Part shown: positions 17,359 to 48,215 of the stretch, in pieces | Position numbering within the stretch: position 1 is the first letter of the stretch | Layout: every line of letters begins with the position of its first letter | Source: Thermoleophilia bacterium | GTDB taxonomy: Bacteria > Actinomycetota > Thermoleophilia > Miltoncostaeales > Miltoncostaeaceae | Direction of reading: 5' to 3' | Length of the DNA stretch: 51,409 nt | NCBI GenBank assembly: GCA_017882545.1 | Contig: JADGPG010000023.1 | Span: 1-51,409 of the forward strand | Notes under the pieces: generated by a model | Told to the model about the DNA's origin: nothing | Seen by the model: only the letters and a program-made list of their open reading frames with translations | Databases searched by the model: none | Program-made: the position numbers and the translations under genes

Positions 17359-17475
17359 CGCCAACATCGCGGGTCAGGGTTGTGCGCCCCTGAGGCTCCG
17401 TGGCGCACACGTTGACGGACCCCACCGGGCGCGCGACTATGAGTGTTGTTGGTTTGTCATGCGGGGGAGCGGGCA

Positions 17476-18663
17476 GTGACTACCGTCCAGCGAGCGTCCC
17501 AGGCCCGCGTCGTCATCGCGGGTGCGGGCTTCGCCGCCTTCGAGGCGGCGTTGGCGCTGCGCGAGTTCGCCCGGGGCGCCGCACACGTCTACCTGCTGAC
17601 GACCCAGCCCGAATTCGTATTCACCCCGGCCTCGACCCGTGAGTTGTTCGGACCCGTACTTCGGACTCGCTGGCCGTTGCATGAGCTGGCACTACGGGCC
17701 GGCGCCGCGGTGATCCCCGGCGCGCTGGCGTCGGTGGACACCGTGGGGCGGCGCCTGGTGACCGCCTCCGGCGACGCGGTCGAGTACGACTATGCGGTCG
17801 TCGCGATCGGGGGTCGACCGGAGCCGTGGCTCGATGCGCCGGGGCTCACGTTCGTCGGGACCGAAGATGTACCCGAGATGGGCCGCGAACTGGACCGTGT
17901 GGCCGAGCGGGTCGCCGCGGGCGCCACCGTCGATGTCGTCTTCGTCGTCCCGCTGGGCGGCGGCTGGGTGATCCCGGCCTATGAGCTCGCGCTGATGGCG
18001 CGGCGCTACCTGGACGGGCGTCACGCCGGCGAGGGTGCCCGCCTGTCCGTCGTGACCTCGGAGGATGCGCCGCTGGGTGTCTTCGGCGAGGGCGCGTCGC
18101 AGTCGATCCGGCATTCGCTGGCCGAAGCCGACATCGCACTCCACGCCGGCACGGTCGTGCGGGGCTGGTCGTCGGGGCACCTGCGCACGGTTCCGAGCGG
18201 GATGATCCCGGCCGACCTGGTGATCGCCCTTCCGGCCATCTCCGGGCCGCGGGTGCGCGGGCTGCCGCAGACCCCGACCGGCTTCGTCGACGCCGGTACC
18301 GACGGACGCGTCCGGGGTCAGGACCGCGTGTTTGTCGCCGGCGATGCGGGCCCGTTCCCGGTCAAACAGGCCGGCCTGGCCTGTCAGCAGGCCGACACCG
18401 TGGCCGCGGCGATTTGCGCGGATCTCGGCGTCGAGGTTCCCGAACTGCCGGCATCACCGGTGTTGCGGGGCCTGTTGTGGTCGGCCAACGGCGACAAGTA
18501 CCTGCGCCGCGATCTTGCGGGCGGCCATGACGAGAGCCAGGGGTCGGTGAGCGTCACGACCGCCCTGTGGTGGCCTCCCGGCAAGGTCGCCGGGCGCTTC
18601 CTGACGCCGTTCCTGCACGAGATCGAGGCGCTGGAGCTCGTCGACGTCCCGGTGACGCGATAG
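17476..18663 (+). CDS. SQR/NDH-2-like FAD-dependent pyridine nucleotide-disulfide oxidoreductase
   Basis: A 395-residue flavoprotein. It has an N-terminal FAD Rossmann motif (ARVVIAGAGFAAFEAALAL), a middle 'YDYAVVAIGG' strand, a degenerate second nucleotide motif ('VFVVPLGGGWVIPAYELAL'), and the C-terminal FAD motif VFVAGDAGPFPVKQAGLACQ. This layout fits sulfide:quinone reductase or type-II NADH dehydrogenase relatives. The paired redox cysteines of true SQR are not evident, so sulfide oxidation is doubtful. GTG 17476 is fixed by a GGGGGAGC ribosome-binding site 5-6 bases upstream. A membrane or quinone partner is expected from the family, not shown here. Confidence 0.82.
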   Translation: MTTVQRASQARVVIAGAGFAAFEAALALREFARGAAHVYLLTTQPEFVFTPASTRELFGPVLRTRWPLHELALRAGAAVIPGALASVDTVGRRLVTASGDAVEYDYAVVAIGGRPEPWLDAPGLTFVGTEDVPEMGRELDRVAERVAAGATVDVVFVVPLGGGWVIPAYELALMARRYLDGRHAGEGARLSVVTSEDAPLGVFGEGASQSIRHSLAEADIALHAGTVVRGWSSGHLRTVPSGMIPADLVIALPAISGPRVRGLPQTPTGFVDAGTDGRVRGQDRVFVAGDAGPFPVKQAGLACQQADTVAAAICADLGVEVPELPASPVLRGLLWSANGDKYLRRDLAGGHDESQGSVSVTTALWWPPGKVAGRFLTPFLHEIEALELVDVPVTR

Positions 18664-20518: not shown

Positions 20519-21679
20519 CTAGGCCGCGGCCGCATGGGCCAGCGAGCAACTGGGGTCGGCGCCCCAGGGGTCGCCGGTGGCGAGCTCGGCCCGGGCGCGC
20601 ATACCGCCGCCGCACAGGGCGAGGTCAGGACAGGCCTGGCACATCGGTGCCATCGGCCGGTCGGCGGAGCGCATCTGCTGGAGCCACTCGGTGCGCCCGG
20701 TCTGCCAGATCTCCGAGAACGGCATCTCGCGGACGTTGCCGAGGGTCCGATGGCGTGAGAACTGATCCGGGTGGACGTCGCCGCGCTCGTCGACGCAGCC
20801 GATCCCCACGCCCGGTCCGCCACGGGCGCCGGCATTCCAGCTCAGCATCTCCCGCGCGGCGGCGGCCCGCTCCGGGTCGCGGTCCTCGAGCCAGTGCAGC
20901 AGCGCGACGCCGTCGGACGGGTTGTCGACGGTGAGGACCTCCACCTGCGGGAAGGCCTGCGCGAAGACGAACACCCGGTGCAGGACCTCGCGGCGCTGTT
21001 CGGGGGTGATGTCGTACAGGTTGCCGCCACGGCCCGACGGGACCAGGTGGTACAGGCAGAAGCGGTCGATGTTCTCGCGCAGTACGAGTGCCAGCACGTC
21101 GGACAGGCCGTCGATGTTGTCCGGGGTCACCGTGAAGCGGACGCCGCGCCGGACGCCGGCGTCGGCGAGGTTGCGCAGCCCCGCGACCGCGCCGTCGAAC
21201 GAGCCCGCCTCGCAACGCTGGTAGTCATGCAGCGGCTTCGGGCCGTCGATGGAGATGCCGGCGTAGATCAGGCCGGCATCCTTGAGCTGGGCGGCCACGT
21301 CGCGGGTGATCATCGTGCCGTTGGACGACAGCGTGAACCTCAGGCCGCGGTCGACGCCGAACGCCATCAGATCCAGCAGATCGGGCCGGGAGAGCGGCTC
21401 GCCACCGGAGATCAGCACGGCGGGGACGGTCCAGGACGCGAGGTCGCTGAGGAATTCGCGTGCTTCCTCGGTGGTGAGTTCGTCCGGGGCCGGGGTCCGC
21501 TTCGCGTTGGCGTAGCAGTGACGGCATGCCAGGTTGCAGGCCCGCGTCACGTTCCAGACGACGACCGGGTGGCGCTCGGTGGATGAGCGGGGGGTGAGTT
21601 CGCCGTGGCGACGTTGTCCGTAGCGCAGCGCATCGGATGCCGATTCGCGCACGCCCAGAAGCGAGGAGACGTTGATCAT
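20519..21679 (-). CDS. AhbC/NirJ-like radical SAM/SPASM protein
   Basis: A 386-residue radical SAM enzyme. The [4Fe-4S]-SAM motif is CNLACRHC (Cys48, Cys52, Cys55), preceded by 'HPVVVWNVTRA'. The SAM-binding GGE motif is LISGGEPLSRPDL. The C-terminal SPASM region has 'GIGCVDERGDVHPDQFSRH', 'GNVREMPFSEIW' and C-x2-C-x5-CGGG. The N-terminal 'VSSLL...SASDALRYG' and the whole C-terminus are strongly reminiscent of AhbC (12,18-didecarboxysiroheme deacetylase) and NirJ of heme d1 synthesis. No siroheme decarboxylase (AhbAB), AhbD or nir genes are present, so the substrate is open. It starts 133 bp from the divergent radical SAM gene. Confidence 0.85.
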   Translation of the reverse strand: MINVSSLLGVRESASDALRYGQRRHGELTPRSSTERHPVVVWNVTRACNLACRHCYANAKRTPAPDELTTEEAREFLSDLASWTVPAVLISGGEPLSRPDLLDLMAFGVDRGLRFTLSSNGTMITRDVAAQLKDAGLIYAGISIDGPKPLHDYQRCEAGSFDGAVAGLRNLADAGVRRGVRFTVTPDNIDGLSDVLALVLRENIDRFCLYHLVPSGRGGNLYDITPEQRREVLHRVFVFAQAFPQVEVLTVDNPSDGVALLHWLEDRDPERAAAAREMLSWNAGARGGPGVGIGCVDERGDVHPDQFSRHRTLGNVREMPFSEIWQTGRTEWLQQMRSADRPMAPMCQACPDLALCGGGMRARAELATGDPWGADPSCSLAHAAAA

Positions 21680-21739: not shown

Positions 21740-21782
21740 TCGGGGTTTTCCACGATCACGACCGGCCGGCCACGGATGTCGC
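21740..21782 (+). promoter_or_regulatory. Shared upstream element, copy 1
   Basis: The sequence TCGGGGTTTTCCACGA at 21740-21755 and CGGATGTCGC at 21773-21782 lie 30 bp before the ATG of the active BA_1875-type radical SAM gene. Both blocks recur with almost the same spacing (33 versus 34 bp) before its paralogue. A promoter or operator carried along with the duplication is the simplest reading. Confidence 0.5.
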
Positions 21783-21812: not shown

Positions 21813-22895
21813 ATGACGACGACCGCGCCCACCCCGACCCGTCCCTTCGGTGCCCCGGGCGCCGTGAGCTGGGATATCGACCGGCAGCCGGTGGTGGTGG
21901 CCTGGGAGGTCACCCGCGCCTGCCAGTACCGCTGCACCCATTGCCGCGCCGACGCCCACCCGCACCCGGATCCCAACGAGCTCTCGACGCTCGAGGCACG
22001 CGCGGTGATCGACCAGTTGGCGGCGTTCCAGGGCTCGATCCTGGTGCTCACCGGCGGCGATCCGCTGCAGCGCAAGGACCTGGAGGAGCTCGTCGCCCAC
22101 GCGGCGGGGCACGGGTTGCGCGTCGCCCTGACACCGAGCGCAACCCCGCGGGTGACCCGCGAGCGGCTGACTGCGCTCAAGGAGGCCGGCCTGTCCCAGG
22201 TGGCGCTCTCGCTCGATTCGGCGACGGCCGCCGGGCACGACACGATGCGCGGCCTGAAGGGGTCGTTCCGGCGGACCCTCGACATCATGACGATGGCCCG
22301 CGAGCTCGGGTATCCGCTGCAGGTCAATTCGACGATCACCCGCCACAACGCGGCGCAGATCGACGAGATGGCCGAGATTGTGGCCGGAACGGGCGCGGTC
22401 GTCTGGAGCGTGTTCTTTCTCGTTCCGACCGGGCGTGGGCAGCGCGCCAACATGCTCAACGCCCACCAGCACGAGCAGGCGCTCCGCCGCCTGGCCGGGC
22501 TGTGGGGCAACGTCCCGTTCCGGATCAAGGCCACCGCGGCCCCAAGCTTTCGCCGGGTCATGGTCCAGACCGGGCACCCGGTCGGGCCGGCGGCGGGCTT
22601 CGCCAACGACGGCAAGGGCTTCATGTTCATCTCGTGCACCGGCGACGTCTGCCCGAGCGGCTTCCTGCCGATCGTGGCTGGCAACGTGCGCGAGACCTCA
22701 CCCGTCGCCATCTATCGCGACGCCGACCTCTTCGTGGCCTTGCGCGACCCCAGCCGCCTGACGGGGCGGTGCGGGCGCTGTCGATTCCGGGCCGAGTGCG
22801 GTGGGAGCCGCGCCCGCGCCTATGCGCTCACCGGCGACCCGCTCGGGGAGGACCCGACATGCATGTACGAACCCACCGGGGGAACGGCCGGCTGA
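21813..22895 (+). CDS. BA_1875-type radical SAM/SPASM protein
   Basis: A 360-residue radical SAM enzyme of the TIGR04053 (BA_1875) type. The cluster motif is CQYRCTHC (Cys37, Cys41, Cys44), and the SAM motif is LVLTGGDPLQRKDL. The auxiliary-cluster region has ISCTGDVCPSG, 'AGNVRETSPVAIYRDADLF' and the C-terminal CGRCRFRAECGGSRARAYAL...DPTC. The family is found near heme d1/AhbC-like enzymes and is uncharacterised. All ligands expected for one SAM cluster and at least one auxiliary cluster are present, so it looks catalytically competent. ATG 21813 is chosen; the ribosome-binding site is weak. Its paralogue starts 72 bp after its stop. Confidence 0.87.
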   Translation: MTTTAPTPTRPFGAPGAVSWDIDRQPVVVAWEVTRACQYRCTHCRADAHPHPDPNELSTLEARAVIDQLAAFQGSILVLTGGDPLQRKDLEELVAHAAGHGLRVALTPSATPRVTRERLTALKEAGLSQVALSLDSATAAGHDTMRGLKGSFRRTLDIMTMARELGYPLQVNSTITRHNAAQIDEMAEIVAGTGAVVWSVFFLVPTGRGQRANMLNAHQHEQALRRLAGLWGNVPFRIKATAAPSFRRVMVQTGHPVGPAAGFANDGKGFMFISCTGDVCPSGFLPIVAGNVRETSPVAIYRDADLFVALRDPSRLTGRCGRCRFRAECGGSRARAYALTGDPLGEDPTCMYEPTGGTAG

Positions 22896-22939
22896 TCGGG
22901 GTTTTCCACGAGCGACGGCCGGATGTTTGCGGATGTCGC
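22896..22939 (+). promoter_or_regulatory. Shared upstream element, copy 2
   Basis: TCGGGGTTTTCCACGA (22896-22911) and CGGATGTCGC (22930-22939) repeat the blocks found upstream of the preceding gene. They begin right after that gene's stop codon and end 28 bp before the GTG of the paralogue. Conservation in an otherwise diverged spacer argues for function or a recent duplication. Confidence 0.5.
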
Positions 22940-22967: not shown

Positions 22968-24047
22968 GTGGTACTCCAGCTTGAGCGATCCGAGCGCATG
23001 TCCGACGACCCCTTGCCGGCACACGTCGTAAACGCGGACCACCAGCCGTCGATGGTGGTCTGGGAGGCGACGCGCGCGTTCCGGTTCCCGGGGACGCCCG
23101 ACGCCGCCCCGGCGGAGCTCGCGGCGCGCCCGGGCGAGCTCACGACCAATGAAGCGATCGCGATGATCGACCAACTCGAGCCCTTCCCGGGCACGGTGCT
23201 CGGGATCACCGGCGGCGACCCCCTCGAACGCGAGGACCTGGAGCTGATCGTGTCGCGCGCGCGGATCCGTGCGCTGCCCGTCGTCCTCGCGCTCGGGGCG
23301 ACGCCACGGGTCACGGTGCACCGGCTGAGGAAGCTGCGCACGGCCTCCGAGCAGACCGAGGTGGCGGTGCGGCTCGACGGCCCAACTGCCGAATCACACG
23401 ACGCCCAGCGAGGCTTCGTCGGCGCGTACCGGCGCACCCTCGACATCATGCAGGGCGCCCGGCAGGTGGGCTTTCCGGTCCGGATCATCACCGCCGTCTC
23501 GCAGCGCAACGTCGATGAGCTCGATGCGCTCGCCGAGGTCGTGGCGATGACCGGCGCCCGCCAATGGAATGTCAGCTTCCTGCCGCCCTTCGGGCGTGGG
23601 AATGCGGCCGACGTGCTGAGCGCCGACGAGCACGAGCAGGTGCTGGTGCGGTTGGCGCACCTTTGGGGACGCGTCCCGTTCACGATCTCGGTCGCATCGT
23701 CTCCGTCGTTTGCACGGGTCATGTCCCAGACCGGCCACCCGGCGAACGGCGAGGTCGATACCTCGACCGACGGGCGCGGGTTCATGTTCATCTCGTCCAC
23801 CGGCGATGTGCGGCCGAGCCGTCTGCTGCCGACCGTCGGCAACGTGCGCCAGGACTCGCCGGCGGTGCTGTACCGGCACGCGCCGCTGTTCGAGGCCCTG
23901 CGCGACCGTGACCGGCTCGAGGGGCGCTGCGGGCGGTGCGAGTACCGGTGCGAGTGCGGCGGGAGCCGCTCGTGGGCGTACGTGACCTCCGGCGACCTTT
24001 TCGCCGAGGATCCGACCTGCCCGTGGGAGCCCGTCACCGCTCCCTGA
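22968..24047 (+). CDS. Radical SAM-fold paralogue lacking the CX3CX2C motif (pseudoenzyme)
   Basis: A 359-residue paralogue of the preceding gene, collinear over its whole length. At the cluster motif the three cysteines become Phe38, Gly42 and Asp45 (TRAFRFPGTPDA versus TRACQYRCTHC) with no insertion or deletion, so this is not a frameshift. The SAM-site motif (ITGGDPLEREDL) and the C-terminal CGRCEYRCECGG...DPTC are kept. Both Cys of the paralogue's ISCTGDVCPSG are lost (ISSTGDVRPSR). It therefore cannot bind the SAM-cleaving cluster but might hold another Fe-S centre. GTG 22968 gives the same N-terminal length as the active copy; ATG 22998 is an alternative. The frame is intact, which suggests selection. 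A partner or scaffold role is inferred. Confidence 0.8.
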   Translation: MVLQLERSERMSDDPLPAHVVNADHQPSMVVWEATRAFRFPGTPDAAPAELAARPGELTTNEAIAMIDQLEPFPGTVLGITGGDPLEREDLELIVSRARIRALPVVLALGATPRVTVHRLRKLRTASEQTEVAVRLDGPTAESHDAQRGFVGAYRRTLDIMQGARQVGFPVRIITAVSQRNVDELDALAEVVAMTGARQWNVSFLPPFGRGNAADVLSADEHEQVLVRLAHLWGRVPFTISVASSPSFARVMSQTGHPANGEVDTSTDGRGFMFISSTGDVRPSRLLPTVGNVRQDSPAVLYRHAPLFEALRDRDRLEGRCGRCEYRCECGGSRSWAYVTSGDLFAEDPTCPWEPVTAP

Positions 24048-24153: not shown

Positions 24154-27100
24154 ATGACGACGACCCCGCGCGCGGCCGATTCCGGCAGCAACGACGCCCT
24201 TCAGGTCAATCTCGCCCGCACTGCGGTCGAGGTCGTCATCCCGACGCGCGACCTGGTGTTGCTGGAGGTCGTGGCGGGCTGGAGGGGCCTCGAGGCCCAG
24301 ACCGCGCAGATGCTGCGCGAGGTCCATCACCAGTTCGTCGGCTGGCCGCAGGCACTTGCCGACCTGCACACGCGGGCGATGGGGGACTTCGCCCATTACG
24401 ACAGCCACCCCCGCGGCGCCGAGGGCATCGCGGTCTACTGCGACCTGTACGCCAAGGCCCTCGCCGGCGTCGGGGAGGGGCTGCGTTCCGACGCCGCGCG
24501 CCGCTGGCTCTACTACCTGACCAAGGTGGCCGGCGAGTCGTCGGACGCCGCGTTTCCGCGCGTCGTGCCCGTGCTGGCGGCGTCGATGCAGCGGTTCGCC
24601 GAGATCACATCGCCCATGCCACAGCTCCAGGTGGCGATGTCGTCGCATGTGCGTCGGCTGGCGCAGCTGCTCGTCGCGCGCGACGACGCGGACGTGGCGC
24701 GGGAGGTTGCGCTCACGCTGCTGGTGGCGAGCCTTGTCCAGGTCGACCGCGCCTATGCCCGCGGCGAGGACCCGGCCGCCTGGTGGGCACGTTCGATCGG
24801 CGGACCCCTTCCGGCGGCGGTCGCCGACATCAGCCACGCGCGCCTGGCGGAGTGGGGAGCCAGATTGCGGGCGATGTCGGCGGCACGGCCGTTGGCCGCG
24901 TATGCCGAGGACCTGCTGGCATTTCCGGACGCGGGGGAGCTCGCCCGGACGTGCCTCGATGTCGCCGAGATCGCGCGCGCCGACACGACCCGACCGCACG
25001 CGTCGCGCGACGCCTTGCGGTGGCTGCTCGAGATGCTGGGCCGGCCGATCCTGGAGCCGGTCCACGAGGTGGCCCTGCGGCAGGTGCGGCGCCTCGCCTC
25101 CGAACTGGTGACGACGGGGCCGCTCGCGGATCGGATCGCCGTCGTCCACGACGTGATCGGGCTGGTCCGGAGCCAGGGCGCCGACTACCCCCAAACCGCG
25201 CAGAGCATCATCGAGCAGGTCGGACGCGACGTCATGGCGACCGGCGACGGTGCGCTCGCAGAGGCCGCGATCGAAGGGATCCTGGCGCTCGAGTTCGCCT
25301 ATCCCGACTTTGCCGGCTTCACCGACGAGTGGCAGGTGCGGGTCAACCCCAACCACGTCCGGGGCATCCGCACCTATCTGCGCATCATCGAAGTCGACCC
25401 GGTTCTGGCACGACCGCTGCTGGTCGCGCTGGTCGCGCACCTGCGGCTCGGTGGGGTGCTCGTCAGCGACACCGACCTGTTCCAACGCGACATCTCGACC
25501 CTGCTGGCATCCGAGATCGCACCGGTCTACCTCTACGTCAAACAGCTGTTGCGCCTGTTCCCGGTCTACCACAACGAGATCGGTGCGGAGGGTGCGCTGC
25601 GGGAGACCTCCACCCGCCTCGATGAGATCGAGGGACGGCGCGACCACCTGTTTCACTTCCTGCGCAAGCAGTGTCATGTCGAGTCGAACTCCGAGATGGT
25701 GGAGTTCGTCGATCGGGTGATCCGGTTCTGTGCCACCGGCGACCCGGCGCCATTGGAGCGCTACCTGCCACCGGAGCTGTATGCGGATGTCGTCACCGAC
25801 CCGAACCGGGATCAGATCCGGGCGGTGTTCGACGCCTTCCTGTCCGCCGGAACGACGATCGAGGAGTTGGCGGAGGCGGATCCGTCCGACGTCGCCACCC
25901 GCGTGGCGGCCGTGCGCGCGGGCACGCCCGTCGCGCGGGAAGAGTTCGGGCTGCTGTTTGCGGTGCGGCGCGAGATCGTGCGCAAGTATCGGCTCGACCC
26001 GGGCGATGCGCTGCCGCGCTTGCGATCGGTCGCGGGCGTGCCGACCGCGATGGTCGAGGCGATCACCGCCGACTTGGCCAACGGTGCCCACGAGCCGGCC
26101 CTCGACGGCATCCTGGCCGCGCTCGAGCGCCTCAAGGTGATCATCGAGACACCGGGGCCGGTCGCAGCAACCGAAGACATTTACCACAAGCGCCATATCG
26201 CGGCGGGCATCCCGAGCATGTACGGCACGTACCGCGAGCCCCGCTTTGATGCGATGGGGCTGACGTTCCGCCTGGAGGCACTGGCGGTTGCGGTGTTCGA
26301 CGCCGCCATCGACGACCTCGCGTTGGCCCCGCTGGAGCACCCGCAGCTGGTCCGGGTCGGGGCCTGGTTCCGGATGCTCTTGCGGGCCGTCCGGATCGAG
26401 GGCTTCCGCGCTCAGGGGTTGACCCACGTGGCGGCGATGCTGGACGAGCTCCTGGCGACACCCGGCGCCACCCTCGACCAGTACCTCAACGTCTTCTGGC
26501 TGGCCTCGCGCAACCTTGAGACCCTCGTCGACGCCCGCATCCTGAGCGTCTACGACGAGGTGGCGCCCAGGGTCATCGCGCCGTTGCTGACGAAAGAGCG
26601 CGTCTCCGGGCCGGCCGGTGCCTCGTCGGACGAGGCGGCGATCGCCGTCTCCGAGGGGCTTGAGCGGGACCTGATCGCCGAAAGTCTCGGGGTGCAGCGC
26701 ATCGACTTGCTGATCGGCCGGGTGTTGCGCGCGATCGAGGATCAGCGCGACATCGGGAACACGGTGGTCGGCGCGCCGCCGGTCGGGGCCGTCTCCGGGG
26801 CCGAGATCATCGAACTCGGTGACACCGCGACCCCCGCCGGGGGTGTGGCGCTCGGCAACAAGGGCCTGATGCTCCGCCGCATGCGGGCACTCGACTTCCC
26901 GATTCCCGACGGCTTCGTCCTGACGACCGGGTTCGTGCGTACGCACGTGGCGTCGGGAGCCGAGGCGTTGCCCGACGAGTTCACCGCGCGGATCCGCGCG
27001 GAGGTCGCTCGGCTGGAGCTGCGGACCGGAGCGCGGTTCGGCGATCCCGAGCGTCCGCTGATGTTCTCCGTCCGCGGCGGCGCCCCGATCAGCATGCCGG

Positions 27101-28332
27101 GAATGCTCGAGACCTACCTGAACGTCGGCCTCAACGTGGCCGTCGCCGAGGGTCTCGCCCGCCAGCCCGGGCGCGAGTGGGCGGCGTGGGACGCCTATCG
27201 GCGCCTGCTGCAGTTCTGGGGAATGAGCTGCGGCCTGCGGCGGGAGCAGTTCGGCGATCTGCTCGCGCTGATCAAACAGCGCTACGGCGTCACCAAGAAG
27301 GCGCAGCTCTCCGGCGCGGGGATGCGGGAGGCCGCGCTCGCCTATCGCCAGCTGCTCATCGACGCCGGGATGCCCTTGGTCGATGACCCGCACGCGCAGC
27401 TGATGGCGTGCATCGCCCACGTCGGGCGATCGTGGTGCGACACCGCGGCCGACACGTACCGGCGGGAGCTCGGGATCTCTGACAACTGGGGCACCGCCGT
27501 GATCGTCCAGAACATGGTGTTCGGCAACATCGGGCGTCAGTCGGGCACCGGGGTAGTGCTGACCCGACACCCCGTGTACGAGACCAGCGGGGTGCAGCTC
27601 TACGGCGATTACGTCGTGCAGGCGCAAGGGGACGACGTCGTCGCCGGCCTGGTGGAGACCTTCCCGGTCTCCGAGTCGCAGCGTCTGGCCGAGCCGAATC
27701 ACGGTCCGCATTCCCTCGAGCGCGATTTCCCCGAGATCTATGCGCAGGTCTTGGCCGTGGCCGAGATTCTGGTCAACGAGCAGGGGATGAATCACCAGGA
27801 GATCGAGTTCACATTCGAGGGCGAGCGGGCGGAGGATCTGTTCATCCTGCAGACCCGCGACGAGGTCACCACCCAGCGCGGCGTGTTGCCGGCGTTCGTC
27901 CCGGGACCGGAGCTTGACGCCGCGCTGATCGCCACCGGTATCGGCGTCGGCGGCGGGGCGTTGTGCGGACGGATCGCCCACAGTCAGCAGGAGCTCGACT
28001 GGCTGGCGGCGGAGTACCCGGGTGACGCGCGGATCCTGCTCCGGCGGGACACCGTGCCCGACGACATCCCGCTGGTCGTTCAGGTGGACGGCCTGCTCAC
28101 GGCGATCGGTGGCGCCACGAGCCATGCGGCGGTCGCTGCCAAGCGTCTCGGAAAGACGTGCGTGGTGGGGTGCCGGCCGTTTATCGTCGGTCCGCCGGGA
28201 GCGCCGTCGCGCCTGGGCGAGCAGCTCGTGCGCTGCGGCGACATGATTGCGATCTCGGGTGTCGACGGATCGGTGCGCACCGGCGCACACCCGACGACGG
28301 AGGTCGTGGTGCGGGGCAGGGCACAGCAATGA
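24154..28332 (+). CDS. Giant PPDK-like protein: unknown N-terminal region, nucleotide-binding domain, phosphohistidine domain
   Basis: A 1392-residue cytosolic protein. Residues 1 to about 870 are mostly helical and match nothing I recognise. Residues about 895-1260 are a PPDK N-terminal (ATP-grasp-like) domain: GNKGLMLRRMRALDFPIPDG, SVRGGAPISMPGMLETYLNV, 'ISDNWGTAVIVQNMVFGN', 'EFTFEGERAEDLFILQTRDE'. Residues about 1265-1390 are the swivelling phosphohistidine domain, with GGATSHAAVAAKRLGKTCVV and catalytic His1324. The PEP/pyruvate-binding TIM barrel of PPDK and PEP synthase is absent; the chain ends after the His domain. It presumably takes phosphate from ATP onto His1324 and passes it to an unknown acceptor. 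ATG 24154 has only a short AGG. The stop overlaps the next gene by ATGA. Confidence 0.85.
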   Translation: MTTTPRAADSGSNDALQVNLARTAVEVVIPTRDLVLLEVVAGWRGLEAQTAQMLREVHHQFVGWPQALADLHTRAMGDFAHYDSHPRGAEGIAVYCDLYAKALAGVGEGLRSDAARRWLYYLTKVAGESSDAAFPRVVPVLAASMQRFAEITSPMPQLQVAMSSHVRRLAQLLVARDDADVAREVALTLLVASLVQVDRAYARGEDPAAWWARSIGGPLPAAVADISHARLAEWGARLRAMSAARPLAAYAEDLLAFPDAGELARTCLDVAEIARADTTRPHASRDALRWLLEMLGRPILEPVHEVALRQVRRLASELVTTGPLADRIAVVHDVIGLVRSQGADYPQTAQSIIEQVGRDVMATGDGALAEAAIEGILALEFAYPDFAGFTDEWQVRVNPNHVRGIRTYLRIIEVDPVLARPLLVALVAHLRLGGVLVSDTDLFQRDISTLLASEIAPVYLYVKQLLRLFPVYHNEIGAEGALRETSTRLDEIEGRRDHLFHFLRKQCHVESNSEMVEFVDRVIRFCATGDPAPLERYLPPELYADVVTDPNRDQIRAVFDAFLSAGTTIEELAEADPSDVATRVAAVRAGTPVAREEFGLLFAVRREIVRKYRLDPGDALPRLRSVAGVPTAMVEAITADLANGAHEPALDGILAALERLKVIIETPGPVAATEDIYHKRHIAAGIPSMYGTYREPRFDAMGLTFRLEALAVAVFDAAIDDLALAPLEHPQLVRVGAWFRMLLRAVRIEGFRAQGLTHVAAMLDELLATPGATLDQYLNVFWLASRNLETLVDARILSVYDEVAPRVIAPLLTKERVSGPAGASSDEAAIAVSEGLERDLIAESLGVQRIDLLIGRVLRAIEDQRDIGNTVVGAPPVGAVSGAEIIELGDTATPAGGVALGNKGLMLRRMRALDFPIPDGFVLTTGFVRTHVASGAEALPDEFTARIRAEVARLELRTGARFGDPERPLMFSVRGGAPISMPGMLETYLNVGLNVAVAEGLARQPGREWAAWDAYRRLLQFWGMSCGLRREQFGDLLALIKQRYGVTKKAQLSGAGMREAALAYRQLLIDAGMPLVDDPHAQLMACIAHVGRSWCDTAADTYRRELGISDNWGTAVIVQNMVFGNIGRQSGTGVVLTRHPVYETSGVQLYGDYVVQAQGDDVVAGLVETFPVSESQRLAEPNHGPHSLERDFPEIYAQVLAVAEILVNEQGMNHQEIEFTFEGERAEDLFILQTRDEVTTQRGVLPAFVPGPELDAALIATGIGVGGGALCGRIAHSQQELDWLAAEYPGDARILLRRDTVPDDIPLVVQVDGLLTAIGGATSHAAVAAKRLGKTCVVGCRPFIVGPPGAPSRLGEQLVRCGDMIAISGVDGSVRTGAHPTTEVVVRGRAQQ

Positions 28333-29618
28333 CCGGATACGCGAACGACAAGGACGGACCGACGATGGGTCACGGACACGGGCGGCCACTGGGAATCAAC
28401 GGCCTCGGTCGGATCGGAAAGTTGTGCGTGTGGCATCACGCCGCGCGCGGGACGTTTCCCGGCCTGGTCGTGAATATCGGCCGTCCCGTCGGGCGCGACC
28501 TCGATGCCGTCTGCGGGGTCATTCAGAACGACTCCACCTACGGCAACATGGACCGCTTCCTGTTTGGCGTCGCGGCGCAGCCGAGCGTCCGCATCATCGA
28601 TCGCGACCGGAATCTCCTCGACGTCGCGGGAATGCCTGTCCGGATCCTCCAGGAGGCGCGCAACCCCGCCGACATCAACTGGCGTCGCGAGGGCGTCCGT
28701 GTGGTGGTGGACACCACCGGGGCCTTCGACGATCCCTCGGTGAGCGAGTCGGCACCCAAGGGGTCCCTCCGCGGGCATCTGGTCGCGGGCGCCGAGAAGG
28801 TGATCTACAGCGCTGCGTTCAAGGTCAAGGGCGGGAGCGCCCCGGACGACTGCGTGACGCTGATCAACGGCATCAACCACGACGCGTTCGACCCCGCGCG
28901 CCACCACCTGATCTCGGCGGCGTCCTGCACGACGACCGCCCTCGCCCACATGGTCAAGCCGTTGCTCGAGCGCATGCAGGCGGCCAACGTCATGACCGCG
29001 TCGATGAGCACCGTGCACGCGGTGACCAACTCCCAGACCGTCCTCGACGCGGTGCCCGGTGACGGTGCGAAGGACCTGCGCAAGACGCGCAGCGCGCTCA
29101 ACAGCATGGTGCTCACCTCGACCAACGCGGCGCGCGCCCTCGAGGAGGTCATCCCCGAGATCCGCGAGATCGGCTTCATGGCCGATTCGGTGCGGATCCC
29201 GATCCCGACCGAATCGCTGATAATCCTCAACGTGACCTTCCAGACCCGGCTCGACGAACACGGCGACTCGCTGATCAACCGCAAGTCGCTCAACCGCATC
29301 TTCCAGGCGGCGGGCAACGGCGCGCAGGCGGGGCTGTTGGTGTATTCGAACGTCCAGAACGTGCCCCGCGACGTCATGGGCATGCGCGCCGCGGTCGTGA
29401 TCGAGGGGACCGAGACCCACACCCGCACCGGGTTCGTCGAGGTGGATCTGGCGTCGCTTCCCGGCATCGATGAGGCGGCGCTGGCGGGGTTTGCCCACCC
29501 GGTGGTTCGCGTGCCGGTCACGCACGCGAAGGTGTTCGGCTGGTACGACAACGAGTACGGCAGCTACACCAACATGCTCGGCGACCTGACCGTCCACGTT
29601 GCGGAGAGCCTGCCGTAG
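28329..29618 (+). CDS. Atypical glyceraldehyde-3-phosphate dehydrogenase-like protein
   Basis: A 429-residue GAPDH-fold dehydrogenase (canonical forms are about 335). The NAD-binding start is LGINGLGRIGKLCVWHHAAR. The catalytic Cys200 lies in SAASCTTTALAHMV, which replaces the usual SCTTNCLAP. The catalytic His230 lies in STVHAVTNSQTVLD, and the C-terminal signature is 'GWYDNEYGSYTNML'. Extra residues occur between the NAD and catalytic domains and after residue 330. The ATG overlaps the stop of the PPDK-like gene (ATGA), so the two are translationally coupled. The fold and both catalytic residues suggest a phosphorylating or hydrolysing aldehyde dehydrogenase. The substrate may not be glyceraldehyde 3-phosphate. 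Confidence 0.82.
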   Translation: MTGYANDKDGPTMGHGHGRPLGINGLGRIGKLCVWHHAARGTFPGLVVNIGRPVGRDLDAVCGVIQNDSTYGNMDRFLFGVAAQPSVRIIDRDRNLLDVAGMPVRILQEARNPADINWRREGVRVVVDTTGAFDDPSVSESAPKGSLRGHLVAGAEKVIYSAAFKVKGGSAPDDCVTLINGINHDAFDPARHHLISAASCTTTALAHMVKPLLERMQAANVMTASMSTVHAVTNSQTVLDAVPGDGAKDLRKTRSALNSMVLTSTNAARALEEVIPEIREIGFMADSVRIPIPTESLIILNVTFQTRLDEHGDSLINRKSLNRIFQAAGNGAQAGLLVYSNVQNVPRDVMGMRAAVVIEGTETHTRTGFVEVDLASLPGIDEAALAGFAHPVVRVPVTHAKVFGWYDNEYGSYTNMLGDLTVHVAESLP

Positions 29619-44515: not shown

Positions 44516-47089
44516 CTATCTCCCGAGTACCGGCCCTCGGGTTAACGTCGCCTTATGGTGCGCCGGAGGCGCCGGATCCGGGCCGTCACCCGTGTCCCGC
44601 ACAGGAGGCTCGCGCCGACGCTCGGCGAGCTCGAGCGTTGCCGGGACCCGTGCGGCGCGCGCCGCAAGGCTGTGGGCGAGAGTGTCAAGGCCGGGATCGT
44701 CGTCGGCCACGAACAGGTGGGTCGCAGTCCGGGCCCGCGACAGGGCGACATATCCCCACTCGGCGCGGCGGCCCGGCGGCGGCATCACGACGAACACCCG
44801 GTCCGTCGTGATGCCCTGGGCGGCGTGGCCGGTCATCGCCCAGGCATGCTCGATCCCTCCGGCGGTCCGGTACTCGGCAGGTATCCCGACACGGGTCCCG
44901 TCGTCGACGTCCATCGTGAGCGCGCCGCGACGGTGGTCGATCGCGGCGATCCATCCGCGCATCCCGTTCCGTAGCCCGTGCCGCGGGTCATTGATCCGGC
45001 AGCGCACCGTGTCCCCGACCGCGTATGCGCCTGTCCCCGTCCCAAGGCGCGGGCCGCGTCGCCCGGCCGTCTCGAGGCGGGTTGCCGCGGCCCGGTTGAG
45101 CGCGGTCACCTCGTCACGTCGATACGCGAGCATGACCGCAGTCGCCGGGTCGCCGCCGACGGCCGCATCCCACCACATCGCGGCACAGGCACCGATGGGG
45201 TCTCCGGTGCGATGGATCCGCTCGTGGGTGTCCCACGCCTGAAGGGCCGCGTGCGCGTCTCCGGCGCGGAGCCGTGCCAGCGCTGCGCGCTCCCAGTCCG
45301 CCGCCTGACGATGGTTGGCGGTGAGCTCGACGGCGCCGATGCGCTCGGCGAGCGCGAGGAACAACCCGCCGGGGCCAACCGCGGGCAGTTGGTGCGGGTC
45401 TCCGACCAGGACAATCCTGGCGCCCGCCGGCTCGGTCAGGCGGACAAGGCGCGCCAGGGTGCGGCTGTCGGCCATCGACGCCTCGTCGACGACGACGCAG
45501 CCGCACGGGCGCTCGGTGCCGTGCTCCCAACGTGCGCAGAGGGCGTGCAGCGTGCCGCTCGGGATCCCCGTGGCCTGCTCGAGGACGTGGGCCGCCTGGG
45601 CCGACGGCGCAGCCCCGGTGACGGGGATGCCTCCGGCCCAGAGCGCGCGCGCAGCCGCCGCGAGTGCGGTCGTCTTGCCGGACCCGGCCCGGCCGACGAT
45701 GCAGGCGATCCGATCATCGCCGGCGGCGGCGAGCTCGGCCGCGCGCGCCTGTTCACCCGAGAGCGCGCCGGCCGGGAATGCCAGGGCATCGGCGACATCT
45801 TCCGGGGTTGCCCGGTGCCCGCCCGTGCCCCGGCCGCGGTCGGCCGCGCCCAGGACGCGGGCCTCGCAGCGCAGCACCTCCTCGGTCGAGTAACGGGCGG
45901 CCCGCCCCGGGCGCCCGGGGTCAATCAGGCGCACCTCGTGCCGCCGCGCGGTTGCCGCCGCCCGGTCGAGGATCCCGGCGACGGTTGCGCCCTCGTCGGC
46001 GGACCGGGCGACCGCCGCGATGAGATCGGCGTGCGTGAACGTCTGGGCAGCGGCCGTCAGCCCGTCCTCGCCCAGCAGCGCTGCGTCCGCGCGGCCCGCC
46101 GGCCAGGCGGCGGGCCGGCGAGGCGCCCCGAGGATGCGGGCGCGTGGCACCTCGCCGATCCCGAGATTCCGCGCCAACCGGCTCCATGTCGCGCGGCGTT
46201 CCCCGCAGTCGAACCCGCGCCGCGGCGGCCGGGCCACGCGGCCGGCAACGCGGGCTCCGTACGCGCTGGTGACCCCGTGGGCGAGCGCGTGGGCCTGCAC
46301 CGCGGCCCCCCGTGCGCTCGTCGCCCGGATGTCGCCGTCGGCGATACCCGCCACCTCGTGCCCGCCGTGTACCGCCCGGCGCCAGCGCAGCCCCAACCGC
46401 GCGGTGAGCTCGTGACGCAGACATGCCTCATAGACGGCCGCGCCGGCCCGCCGCCACCCGACCAGCAGTGGGATCGCGTCGAGCGCACGCCAGCGGGTCT
46501 GCTCGGCGAGGGCGACGGACTGGTTGGCGACGACCACGTGGGTGTGCAGGTGGGGGTCGCCGTCACGGTTGACGTAGTGGGCGAAGGCCCCACCGACATA
46601 TCCGGCCCCTATAACGCCGGCGCCCCTCACGCGGACGACACAGGTATGCGCTTCGAGAAACGCCAGCGCGGCCTGCCAGGCGGCGCGGTGCGCCGCCGTC
46701 ACCGCGATCACCGCCGGGTCATCGAGCAGCAACAGCAAGCTGATGGATTTCGGCGGGCTGAAGACCAGGTCGAAGCCCGCCACCGGCTGCGCGGTGGTGG
46801 TCACCCGGACCTCAGCGCCGGTCTGCGGATCGCGTGCCGTGCGCGTGATCGTCCGCGCAGGCGCGGTCGGCCGCAAGCGCCGACCGGTGGTCGGGTCGGT
46901 GCCGAGCAGCAGGCGCGTCAGGGCCCCCGGCGCGATCGGGCCGTGCACGCCGACCAGCGCCGCCGCGCCCCCGACCCATTCGCTCGTGGGAATTCCCGTC
47001 CACTCGCTCCAGCCGACGTCCTCCCGTACGGCGCGCTCGTAGTAGCCGCGGGCCGCCGTCGCAGGGCGCAGGCGGGCGATGCTCAGCAT
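44516..47089 (-). CDS. MobF-family relaxase with helicase domain (TraA/TrwC-like)
   Basis: An 857-residue conjugative relaxase. The N-terminal HUH domain has a Tyr pair (MLSIARLRPATAARGYYERA; Tyr16/17), 'PVAGFDLVFSPPKSISLLL' and the histidine triad DGDPHLHTHVVVAN near residue 181. A RecD-like superfamily 1 helicase follows, with Walker A CIVGRAGSGKTTAL near residue 470, Walker B VVVDEASMAD, 'GDPHQLPAVGPGG', and a C-terminal 'GYVALSRARTATHLFV'. Such enzymes nick oriT and unwind plasmid DNA. No coupling protein, type IV secretion, integrase or plasmid replication gene is in the window. ATG 47089 starts the fold; the longer frame to 47227 adds non-homologous residues. All motifs are intact. Confidence 0.88.
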   Translation of the reverse strand: MLSIARLRPATAARGYYERAVREDVGWSEWTGIPTSEWVGGAAALVGVHGPIAPGALTRLLLGTDPTTGRRLRPTAPARTITRTARDPQTGAEVRVTTTAQPVAGFDLVFSPPKSISLLLLLDDPAVIAVTAAHRAAWQAALAFLEAHTCVVRVRGAGVIGAGYVGGAFAHYVNRDGDPHLHTHVVVANQSVALAEQTRWRALDAIPLLVGWRRAGAAVYEACLRHELTARLGLRWRRAVHGGHEVAGIADGDIRATSARGAAVQAHALAHGVTSAYGARVAGRVARPPRRGFDCGERRATWSRLARNLGIGEVPRARILGAPRRPAAWPAGRADAALLGEDGLTAAAQTFTHADLIAAVARSADEGATVAGILDRAAATARRHEVRLIDPGRPGRAARYSTEEVLRCEARVLGAADRGRGTGGHRATPEDVADALAFPAGALSGEQARAAELAAAGDDRIACIVGRAGSGKTTALAAAARALWAGGIPVTGAAPSAQAAHVLEQATGIPSGTLHALCARWEHGTERPCGCVVVDEASMADSRTLARLVRLTEPAGARIVLVGDPHQLPAVGPGGLFLALAERIGAVELTANHRQAADWERAALARLRAGDAHAALQAWDTHERIHRTGDPIGACAAMWWDAAVGGDPATAVMLAYRRDEVTALNRAAATRLETAGRRGPRLGTGTGAYAVGDTVRCRINDPRHGLRNGMRGWIAAIDHRRGALTMDVDDGTRVGIPAEYRTAGGIEHAWAMTGHAAQGITTDRVFVVMPPPGRRAEWGYVALSRARTATHLFVADDDPGLDTLAHSLAARAARVPATLELAERRREPPVRDTGDGPDPAPPAHHKATLTRGPVLGR

Positions 47090-47225
47090 GGGCTGGGCCG
47101 ATCGGGGGCGGGCGGTCCGTCCGGATGCGGCATCGCACGAGGTCAGATGGTCCGATCGTGCGGCGTGCGGGGGTCGGTCGGACGTACCCGGTTGCAATCG
47201 CCCGTAGACGGTCCACACTTCGGCC

Positions 47226-48215
47226 ATGGCTGACGGCGATTCCCCCCGGCCCGAGCGCCCGGAGCCACCGCCTCACGGAGCGCGCCCGCGGGAGGTGCGG
47301 ATCGGCCGGGCCGCGTTCCTGGCGACCGTGGCGGCGGGTATCGGCGGCATCGTCCTGGGGCCGCGGCTGCAGCAATTCGTGACCAACCCGCTCGACGCGG
47401 TTCTGCCGTCGGGTCTGGGCGACCTGATCCCCGGAAGCGGCTGGCGGATCTACAACGTGCAGGATCCCTACCCGACCTTTCATCCGTCCACGTATCGGCT
47501 CGAGGTCGGAGGCCTGGTCGAACGCCCCGCGTCACTGTCCTGGTCGCACATCGCGGCACTTCCCGGCGTATCGCAAACCTCGACCTTTCACTGCGTCACG
47601 GGCTGGACCGTCGACGGGGTTCGCTGGGAGGGGTTTCGCGCCCAGGCGCTCATGGACATCGTCCGGCCGCTGCCGTCGGCGCAATACGTGACCTTCCAAT
47701 CGCTTGAGGCGCCGTACGTGGACCAGCTCTCGCTCGCGCAGTTCACCCTTCCCGACGTGTTGATCGCCCGGCAGATGGGCGGGGCTCCGATCTCCCGCGC
47801 CCACGGCGCGCCGCTGCGGCTCGTGATCCCGGATATGTACGGCTACAAGGGCGTCAAGTGGTTGGGCGGGATCACCTTCACCGACCAACCCGCACCCGGC
47901 TATTGGGAGGTCCGCGGCTACGACGTCGATGCATGGGTCGGGCGATCCAACGGCAATGGCTGCGCCCGGTTCGCGCATCCGCCGCTTCACGGTGGCCGAG
48001 CGCCTGCTGCACTGGCTGCTGGCCGTCGCGTTCGTCGTGCTCCTGTACACGGGCTTTCTCATGTCGGTGCCCGTGCTGGAGGGAACGGTTCCGCGTCCGA
48101 CGGCCAAGGCCTGGCACATCGACGCCGCGGTCGCGCTGGCGGTTGGGACGGTCGTGATCCTCATCGCCCGCTCCCGGGTGTTCGCACGCACCGTCGGGCA
48201 GCTCGAACGGTTTGA
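47226..48215 (+). CDS. SUOX-fold molybdopterin-dependent oxidoreductase (MsrP/YedY-like)
   Basis: A membrane-anchored or exported molybdoenzyme. The N-terminal hydrophobic segment (GRAAFLATVAAGIGGIVLG, about residues 30-50) lacks a proper twin-arginine pair. The molybdenum-ligand Cys123 is in STFHCVTGWTVDGVRWEG. Further family marks are 'SLEAPYVDQLSL', HGAPLRLVIPDMYGYKGVKW and 'GYWEVRGYDVDAWVGRSNG', where relatives normally end (about residue 244). The frame instead runs another 85 or so residues to 48215, in a different frame through the start of the cytochrome b gene, with a low-complexity Arg/Gly/Ala composition. A lost stop codon or sequencing error near 47960 is likely. Confidence 0.85.
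   Translation: MADGDSPRPERPEPPPHGARPREVRIGRAAFLATVAAGIGGIVLGPRLQQFVTNPLDAVLPSGLGDLIPGSGWRIYNVQDPYPTFHPSTYRLEVGGLVERPASLSWSHIAALPGVSQTSTFHCVTGWTVDGVRWEGFRAQALMDIVRPLPSAQYVTFQSLEAPYVDQLSLAQFTLPDVLIARQMGGAPISRAHGAPLRLVIPDMYGYKGVKWLGGITFTDQPAPGYWEVRGYDVDAWVGRSNGNGCARFAHPPLHGGRAPAALAAGRRVRRAPVHGLSHVGARAGGNGSASDGQGLAHRRRGRAGGWDGRDPHRPLPGVRTHRRAARTV

Follow-up and report, generated by a model that had tools for sequence, protein, structure and literature searches.

A tandem AhbD-like paralogue without radical SAM cysteines, retained in one Thermoleophilia genus as a possible partner of the active copy

Why would a bacterium keep, right behind a radical SAM enzyme, a copy of it that lacks the cysteines of the radical SAM cluster? 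The question is raised by two adjacent genes in the window, that is, the whole stretch of 51,409 nucleotides analysed here (contig JADGPG010000023.1 of assembly GCA_017882545.1, Thermoleophilia bacterium). The second gene (22968-24047, + strand; hereafter the pseudo copy) is an open frame of 359 codons encoding 359 aa (coordinates with the stop included), with a GTG start whose exact position is uncertain, conservation being only 25% over the first 28 residues. Its product aligns end to end with that of the first gene (21813-22895, + strand; hereafter the active copy), with 52% identity over 336 residues and 2 gap positions, none of which falls in the motif region. In this alignment, C37, C41 and C44 of the active copy become F38, G42 and D45, within codons 38-45 of the pseudo copy (F-R-F-P-G-T-P-D; 23079-23102, + strand), which is the site of CX3CX2C in all relatives. 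All 42 of the related TIGR04053 proteins retrieved have these cysteines; only the pseudo copy and its orthologue in the same genus lack them, and neither carries CX3CX2C or a variant of it. Thus, an intact frame collinear with its neighbour, in which Phe, Gly and Asp replace the three cysteines without frameshift, is what an earlier sequence-only reading had proposed and what the alignment bears out.

The same reading had noted that the GGDPL motif and the C-terminal C-x2-C-x5-C-GG set are retained. Both are present in the alignment (C321, C324 and C330 for the latter), and the fourth cysteine, C351, is kept too. Together they form CX2CX5CX20C (23928-24020, + strand), the motif that binds the AuxII [4Fe-4S] cluster in AhbD and NirJ (PMC10452713, PMC12505453). 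Since the four ligands occur in the pseudo copies of both species and agree with the CX2CX5CX20-38C pattern of SPASM/twitch proteins, both probably have an AuxII site. The pseudo copy also matches the Pfam Radical_SAM family PF04055 (34.6 bits for a cut-off of 29.5), which places it in the superfamily, and its AF2 model (pLDDT of 58 overall, which is low, and about 80 in the barrel) matches SkfB, PqqE and SuiB. The structure models are weak in the SPASM half, hence pocket geometry was not taken from them. We rejected C275 and C280 of the active copy as AuxI ligands lost from the pseudo copy: both are absent from it, but neither is conserved in the family, position 275 being mostly His and position 280 variable. 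These two cysteines, beside a PSGFLP motif, are specific to the active copies of this genus.

The loss extends beyond the cysteines. Among the 42 other TIGR04053 proteins, 74 columns are near-invariant (conservation of 90% or more), of which both pseudo copies retain 56 and lose 18. The positions invariant in 42/42 that are lost in both are C37, C41, H43, C44, R45, P108, S133, Q170, N172, F201 and G283 (active-copy numbering) and, except for G283, they map to the loop after strand 1 and to strands 3 to 6 in a model of the active copy that is weak but confident in the barrel. By alignment to SkfB, whose contacts are described in PMC6231123, S133 corresponds to the ribose serine, and H43 and R45 to the adenine-side Phe123 and Tyr125, so that, besides the cysteines, the pseudo copy lacks the serine that contacts ribose and both positions of CX3CX2C on the adenine side. 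Column losses are enriched at the SAM face, which we defined ourselves from the model and the SkfB contacts (p = 0.001, and p = 0.012 without the three cysteines), whereas 17 of the 18 conserved columns are retained in the C-terminal segment around the auxiliary motif. GGD and an arginine (R146, which is R148 in the pseudo copy) remain of the SAM-binding set. Therefore, although GGDPL is indeed retained, it is by itself not good evidence for SAM binding. Three new arginines common to both pseudo copies, R135, R172 and R285, replace the invariant S133 (the ribose serine), Q170 and G283. In addition, K239 is changed to S and R247 to A; K/R239 and R247 would be candidate binders of substrate carboxylates. 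With these likely substrate-pocket residues altered, a simple substrate-holding function is less obvious than the earlier reading assumed.

Is the pseudo copy then a gene in decay? Outside the window's genome, the same tandem was found in a second species of the genus, the metagenome-assembled genome (MAG) of Thermoleophilia bacterium isolate Chersky_126, where gene order is unchanged, the AhbC/NirJ1-like and PPDK-like neighbours are also present and the F/G/D change is identical (motif region TRAFRFAGTADAA in Chersky_126 and TRAFRFPGTPDAA in the window). The two pseudo copies share 74% nucleotide and 73% protein identity and differ at 0.18/0.14/0.46 of first, second and third codon positions. 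By NG86, dN is 0.182 and dS 0.914, giving a dN/dS of about 0.20, compared with 0.12 for the active pair (dN 0.108, dS 0.893), these ratios being approximate as the dS values are large; for the AhbC-like pair, dN is 0.078 and dS 0.783. When neutral evolution was simulated to equal DNA identity, protein identity fell to 51% (maximum 55%) instead of the observed 73%, and a mean of 3.3 stops arose, with 290/300 runs gaining a stop and 10/300 none. Neither species has a stop or a frameshift in its pseudo copy. Identity between the two reaches 88% in residues 29-70, which surround the lost motif, above every other stretch tested. Judging from these comparisons, purifying selection maintains the pseudo copy alongside the active one. 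However, relative rates give 22 changes on the pseudo copy of the window's genome against 8 in Chersky_126 (chi-square 6.5), and constraint on the former may be loosening.

The two genes also share upstream DNA. An element reading TCGGGGTTTTCCACGA ... CGGATGTCGC precedes the active gene (21740-21782, + strand) and the same element precedes the pseudo copy (22896-22939, + strand). In both species, TCGGGGTTTTCCACGA followed by CGGATGYCG stands upstream of both genes, with a 16-base block identical in 4/4 cases, which gives substance to the earlier mention of conserved upstream DNA. Apart from these sites, a 19-base form of this block is matched closely only once in the genome, at 3 mismatches. 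Being common to both genes in both species and near-unique in the genome, the block supports co-regulation of the active and pseudo genes. No sigma-70 promoter or terminator was found.

In a phylogeny of 56 proteins, the pseudo copies form a sister pair (100/100), which joins the active copies of this genus within the family of the window's genome (95/90). The stem of the pseudo copies is long (0.73), with tips of 0.27 and 0.10, compared with tips of 0.10 and 0.11 for the active copies. As read from the tree, the history is one tandem duplication in the lineage of the genus, followed by a burst of change and then by constraint. The pair is present in 2/4 genomes of this genus of soil bacteria. 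In a third (G001), the AhbC-like and PPDK-like orthologues each lie at the first base of a contig, so that the intervening segment falls in an assembly gap, and in the fourth (G003) close homologues of the whole locus are missing. Searching the family and order (42 genomes), a class sample (399) and a contig scan returned Chersky_126 as the only further genome with an orthologue, and the remaining TIGR04053 proteins retrieved across the phylum included no further pseudo copy; the pseudo copy is thus known from two genomes only.

The active copy scores 428 bits with TIGR04053 (cut-off 395) and contains both CX3CX2C and CX2CX5CX20C. Its next-best model is AhbD (TIGR04545) with 307 bits, below the equivalog cut-off of 500, so that its AhbD identity rests on family, motif and context. 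Next to it lies a divergent AhbC/NirJ1-like radical SAM/SPASM gene (20519-21679, - strand), of a kind that repeatedly accompanies TIGR04053 across the family. The same genome encodes AhbA and AhbB as a fusion adjacent to hemB, both scoring above their cut-offs, as well as a ChdC-type protein, and a ferrochelatase was found neither in this genome nor in most of the family. Taken together, the AhbC/NirJ1-like gene, the AhbAB fusion, ChdC and the lack of a detected ferrochelatase make the active copy a probable heme synthase of the AhbD type, working in the siroheme route. In Haloferax volcanii, AhbD serves under anoxic conditions and ChdC when oxygen is present (PMC8305020). By inference, the active copy would be the AhbD-type enzyme that makes heme at low oxygen, on a substrate that the AhbC/NirJ1-like product is predicted to supply. 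As a side observation, the window's genome (G000) contains ChdC as well as AhbAB (C92 30474-31061 and C28 4287-5069), so that the final step to heme could take either of two forms. Elsewhere in the class there are families in which TIGR04053 adjoins hemE and hemH; in one of them (loci L032, L033 and L034) it occurs with hemE, ferrochelatase and, in L034, protoporphyrinogen oxidase. This suggests that TIGR04053 proteins could also serve the coproporphyrin route.

Low dN/dS, an orthologue with the same loss, intact frames and a conserved upstream element argue for a retained paralogue rather than a decaying gene, as the sequence-only reading had held. For its function, the reading we favour, tentatively and with somewhat less than even confidence, is that of a conserved AuxII-only pseudoenzyme acting as a non-catalytic redox partner of the active copy. 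In one Thermoleophilia genus, an AhbD-type heme synthase (TIGR04053) would have been duplicated in tandem and one copy turned into a pseudoenzyme, folding as a barrel whose SAM site is either vacant or filled anew and which carries a single auxiliary [4Fe-4S] cluster. Without a radical SAM cluster and with a dismantled SAM pocket, it should not start radical chemistry and would instead pair with the active copy and assist it as a subunit without catalysis of its own. Such a partner agrees with the retention of the AuxII ligands and of the fold, with the selection, with the tandem position and with the shared upstream control. Its likeliest service would be electron transfer in the oxidative decarboxylation of Fe-coproporphyrin III, a reaction by which AhbD leaves an electron for removal (PMC11306076, PMC10452713); the pseudo copy might take up this electron or dock a redox protein. 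Genes for NAD(P)/FAD pyridine-disulphide oxidoreductases recur near TIGR04053 in several genomes (window 17443-18663, + strand; L022 365-1510; L036 8972-10180; L017 6339-7526) and their products are possible redox partners. It is because of the leftover electron and these recurring flavin oxidoreductase genes that we prefer the redox partner model. On the other side, the AuxII cluster of M. barkeri AhbD was dispensable in a published assay (PMC10452713), which weakens an AuxII-based role, and the change of likely substrate-pocket residues, G283 to R as well as those at 239 and 247, counts against a partner of this kind.

Alternatively, the emptied SAM pocket, now carrying R135, R172 and R285, might bind Fe-coproporphyrin III or heme, and the protein would then pass its ligand between AhbC, the active AhbD-like enzyme and ChdC, or sense it. 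We rate this carrier or sensor as unlikely, yet worth keeping in mind: an AhbD variant with an altered cluster set (RS/AuxII variant) still binds substrate (PMC10452713), and the new arginines at invariant positions are shared by both species in a tandem within a heme locus, but the invariant basic residues that possibly bind propionates (K/R239 and R247) are gone, and such a protein has no obvious reason to retain AuxII. Duplicated enzyme subunits commonly become allosteric or stabilising subunits. Rather less probable still is, in our judgement, that the pseudo copy does just this with no redox or ligand role, dimerising with the active copy and keeping AuxII only for folding; the retention of family sequence and of the AuxII segment with loss of the SAM site would suit it, and so would this common fate, but nothing specific in the sequence points to it.

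Slow decay of an inactive duplicate would account for the faster evolution of the pseudo copy relative to the active copy, for the excess of changes in the window's genome over Chersky_126 and for the 18/74 near-invariant positions lost. It is largely refuted by the dN/dS of 0.20, the frames free of stops and frameshifts in both species, a motif region that is among the most conserved and the conserved upstream element, and we regard it as improbable. An assembly or sequencing artefact of the tandem pair could be suspected, since the contigs come from MAGs and the G001 assembly breaks on both sides of the segment. However, the order, the motif and the upstream element recur in assemblies of two different species whose nucleotide identity is 74%, which excludes assembly error for practical purposes and leaves an artefact with hardly any probability. 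Hence frameshifts, neutral dN/dS and misassembly, the outcomes that the earlier reading had named as fatal to it, all came out negative, and the orthologues sharing the cysteine loss that it had called for turned up in one more species.

How does the proposed redox partner compare with known systems? The pseudo copy resembles the TIGR04053 family, which is closest to AhbD (TIGR04545), in full-length homology, in GGD, CX2CX5CX20C, GRG and other invariants and in its adjoining AhbC/NirJ1-like gene, but it lacks CX3CX2C and the SAM-pocket residues and scores 283 bits with the family model, below the cut-off of 395. Its kind is already known: TIGR04347 of halophilic archaea, a radical-SAM-related SPASM protein of the heme-enzyme group, is named pseudo-SAM by NCBIfam. 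We rejected membership of the pseudo copy in TIGR04347, whose model gives it 113 bits for a cut-off of 525 and prefers the AhbC/NirJ1-like neighbour (318 bits; active copy 173). This preference suggests a separate case, arising from the AhbD-like branch and probably independent of the halophile family. The AuxII-only AhbDs of non-methanogenic archaea, none of which had been studied biochemically as of 2023 (PMC10452713), resemble the pseudo copy in the C-terminal CX2CX5CX20-38C, in their heme pathway context and in the serines at apparent AuxI cysteine positions, but possess CX3CX2C. By analogy only, in the Dph1-Dph2 heterodimer one of two paralogous Fe-S/SAM proteins is catalytic and the other supports reduction (PMC8153317); these belong to an unrelated, non-canonical radical SAM family, and Dph2 keeps its cluster, unlike the pseudo copy. 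That the heme synthase here would be a heteromer in which a radical SAM subunit is joined by a paralogous pseudo-subunit that has AuxII only, with catalysis and electron handling split between them and independently of the halophile pseudo-SAM family, is in its entirety a doubtful proposal.

Pseudo-radical-SAM proteins are barely described in the literature searched, where queries on TIGR04053 and pseudo radical SAM enzymes returned nothing direct, and among SPASM enzymes related to heme the pseudo copy would add a second case, probably an independent one. The role of the auxiliary clusters in AhbD and NirJ is an open question (PMC10452713, PMC12505453). With the radical cluster lost and AuxII kept under selection, the pseudo copy amounts to a natural separation-of-function protein, which suggests an independent use for AuxII or for the scaffold.

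Downstream of the pair, the PPDK-like gene (24154-28332, + strand) encodes 1392 aa, of which the first 900 or so match no Pfam family; PPDK ATP-binding and mobile domains follow, with no match to the PEP/pyruvate barrel, and orthologues occur in G001, Chersky_126 (G002) and G009. It is followed by a GAPDH-like gene (28332-29618, + strand) whose product, of about 428 aa, is longer than usual and scores 274 bits against a GAPDH-I cut-off of 367. Further on, a TrwC-type relaxase with a helicase domain (44516-47227, - strand) points to a mobile element within the window.
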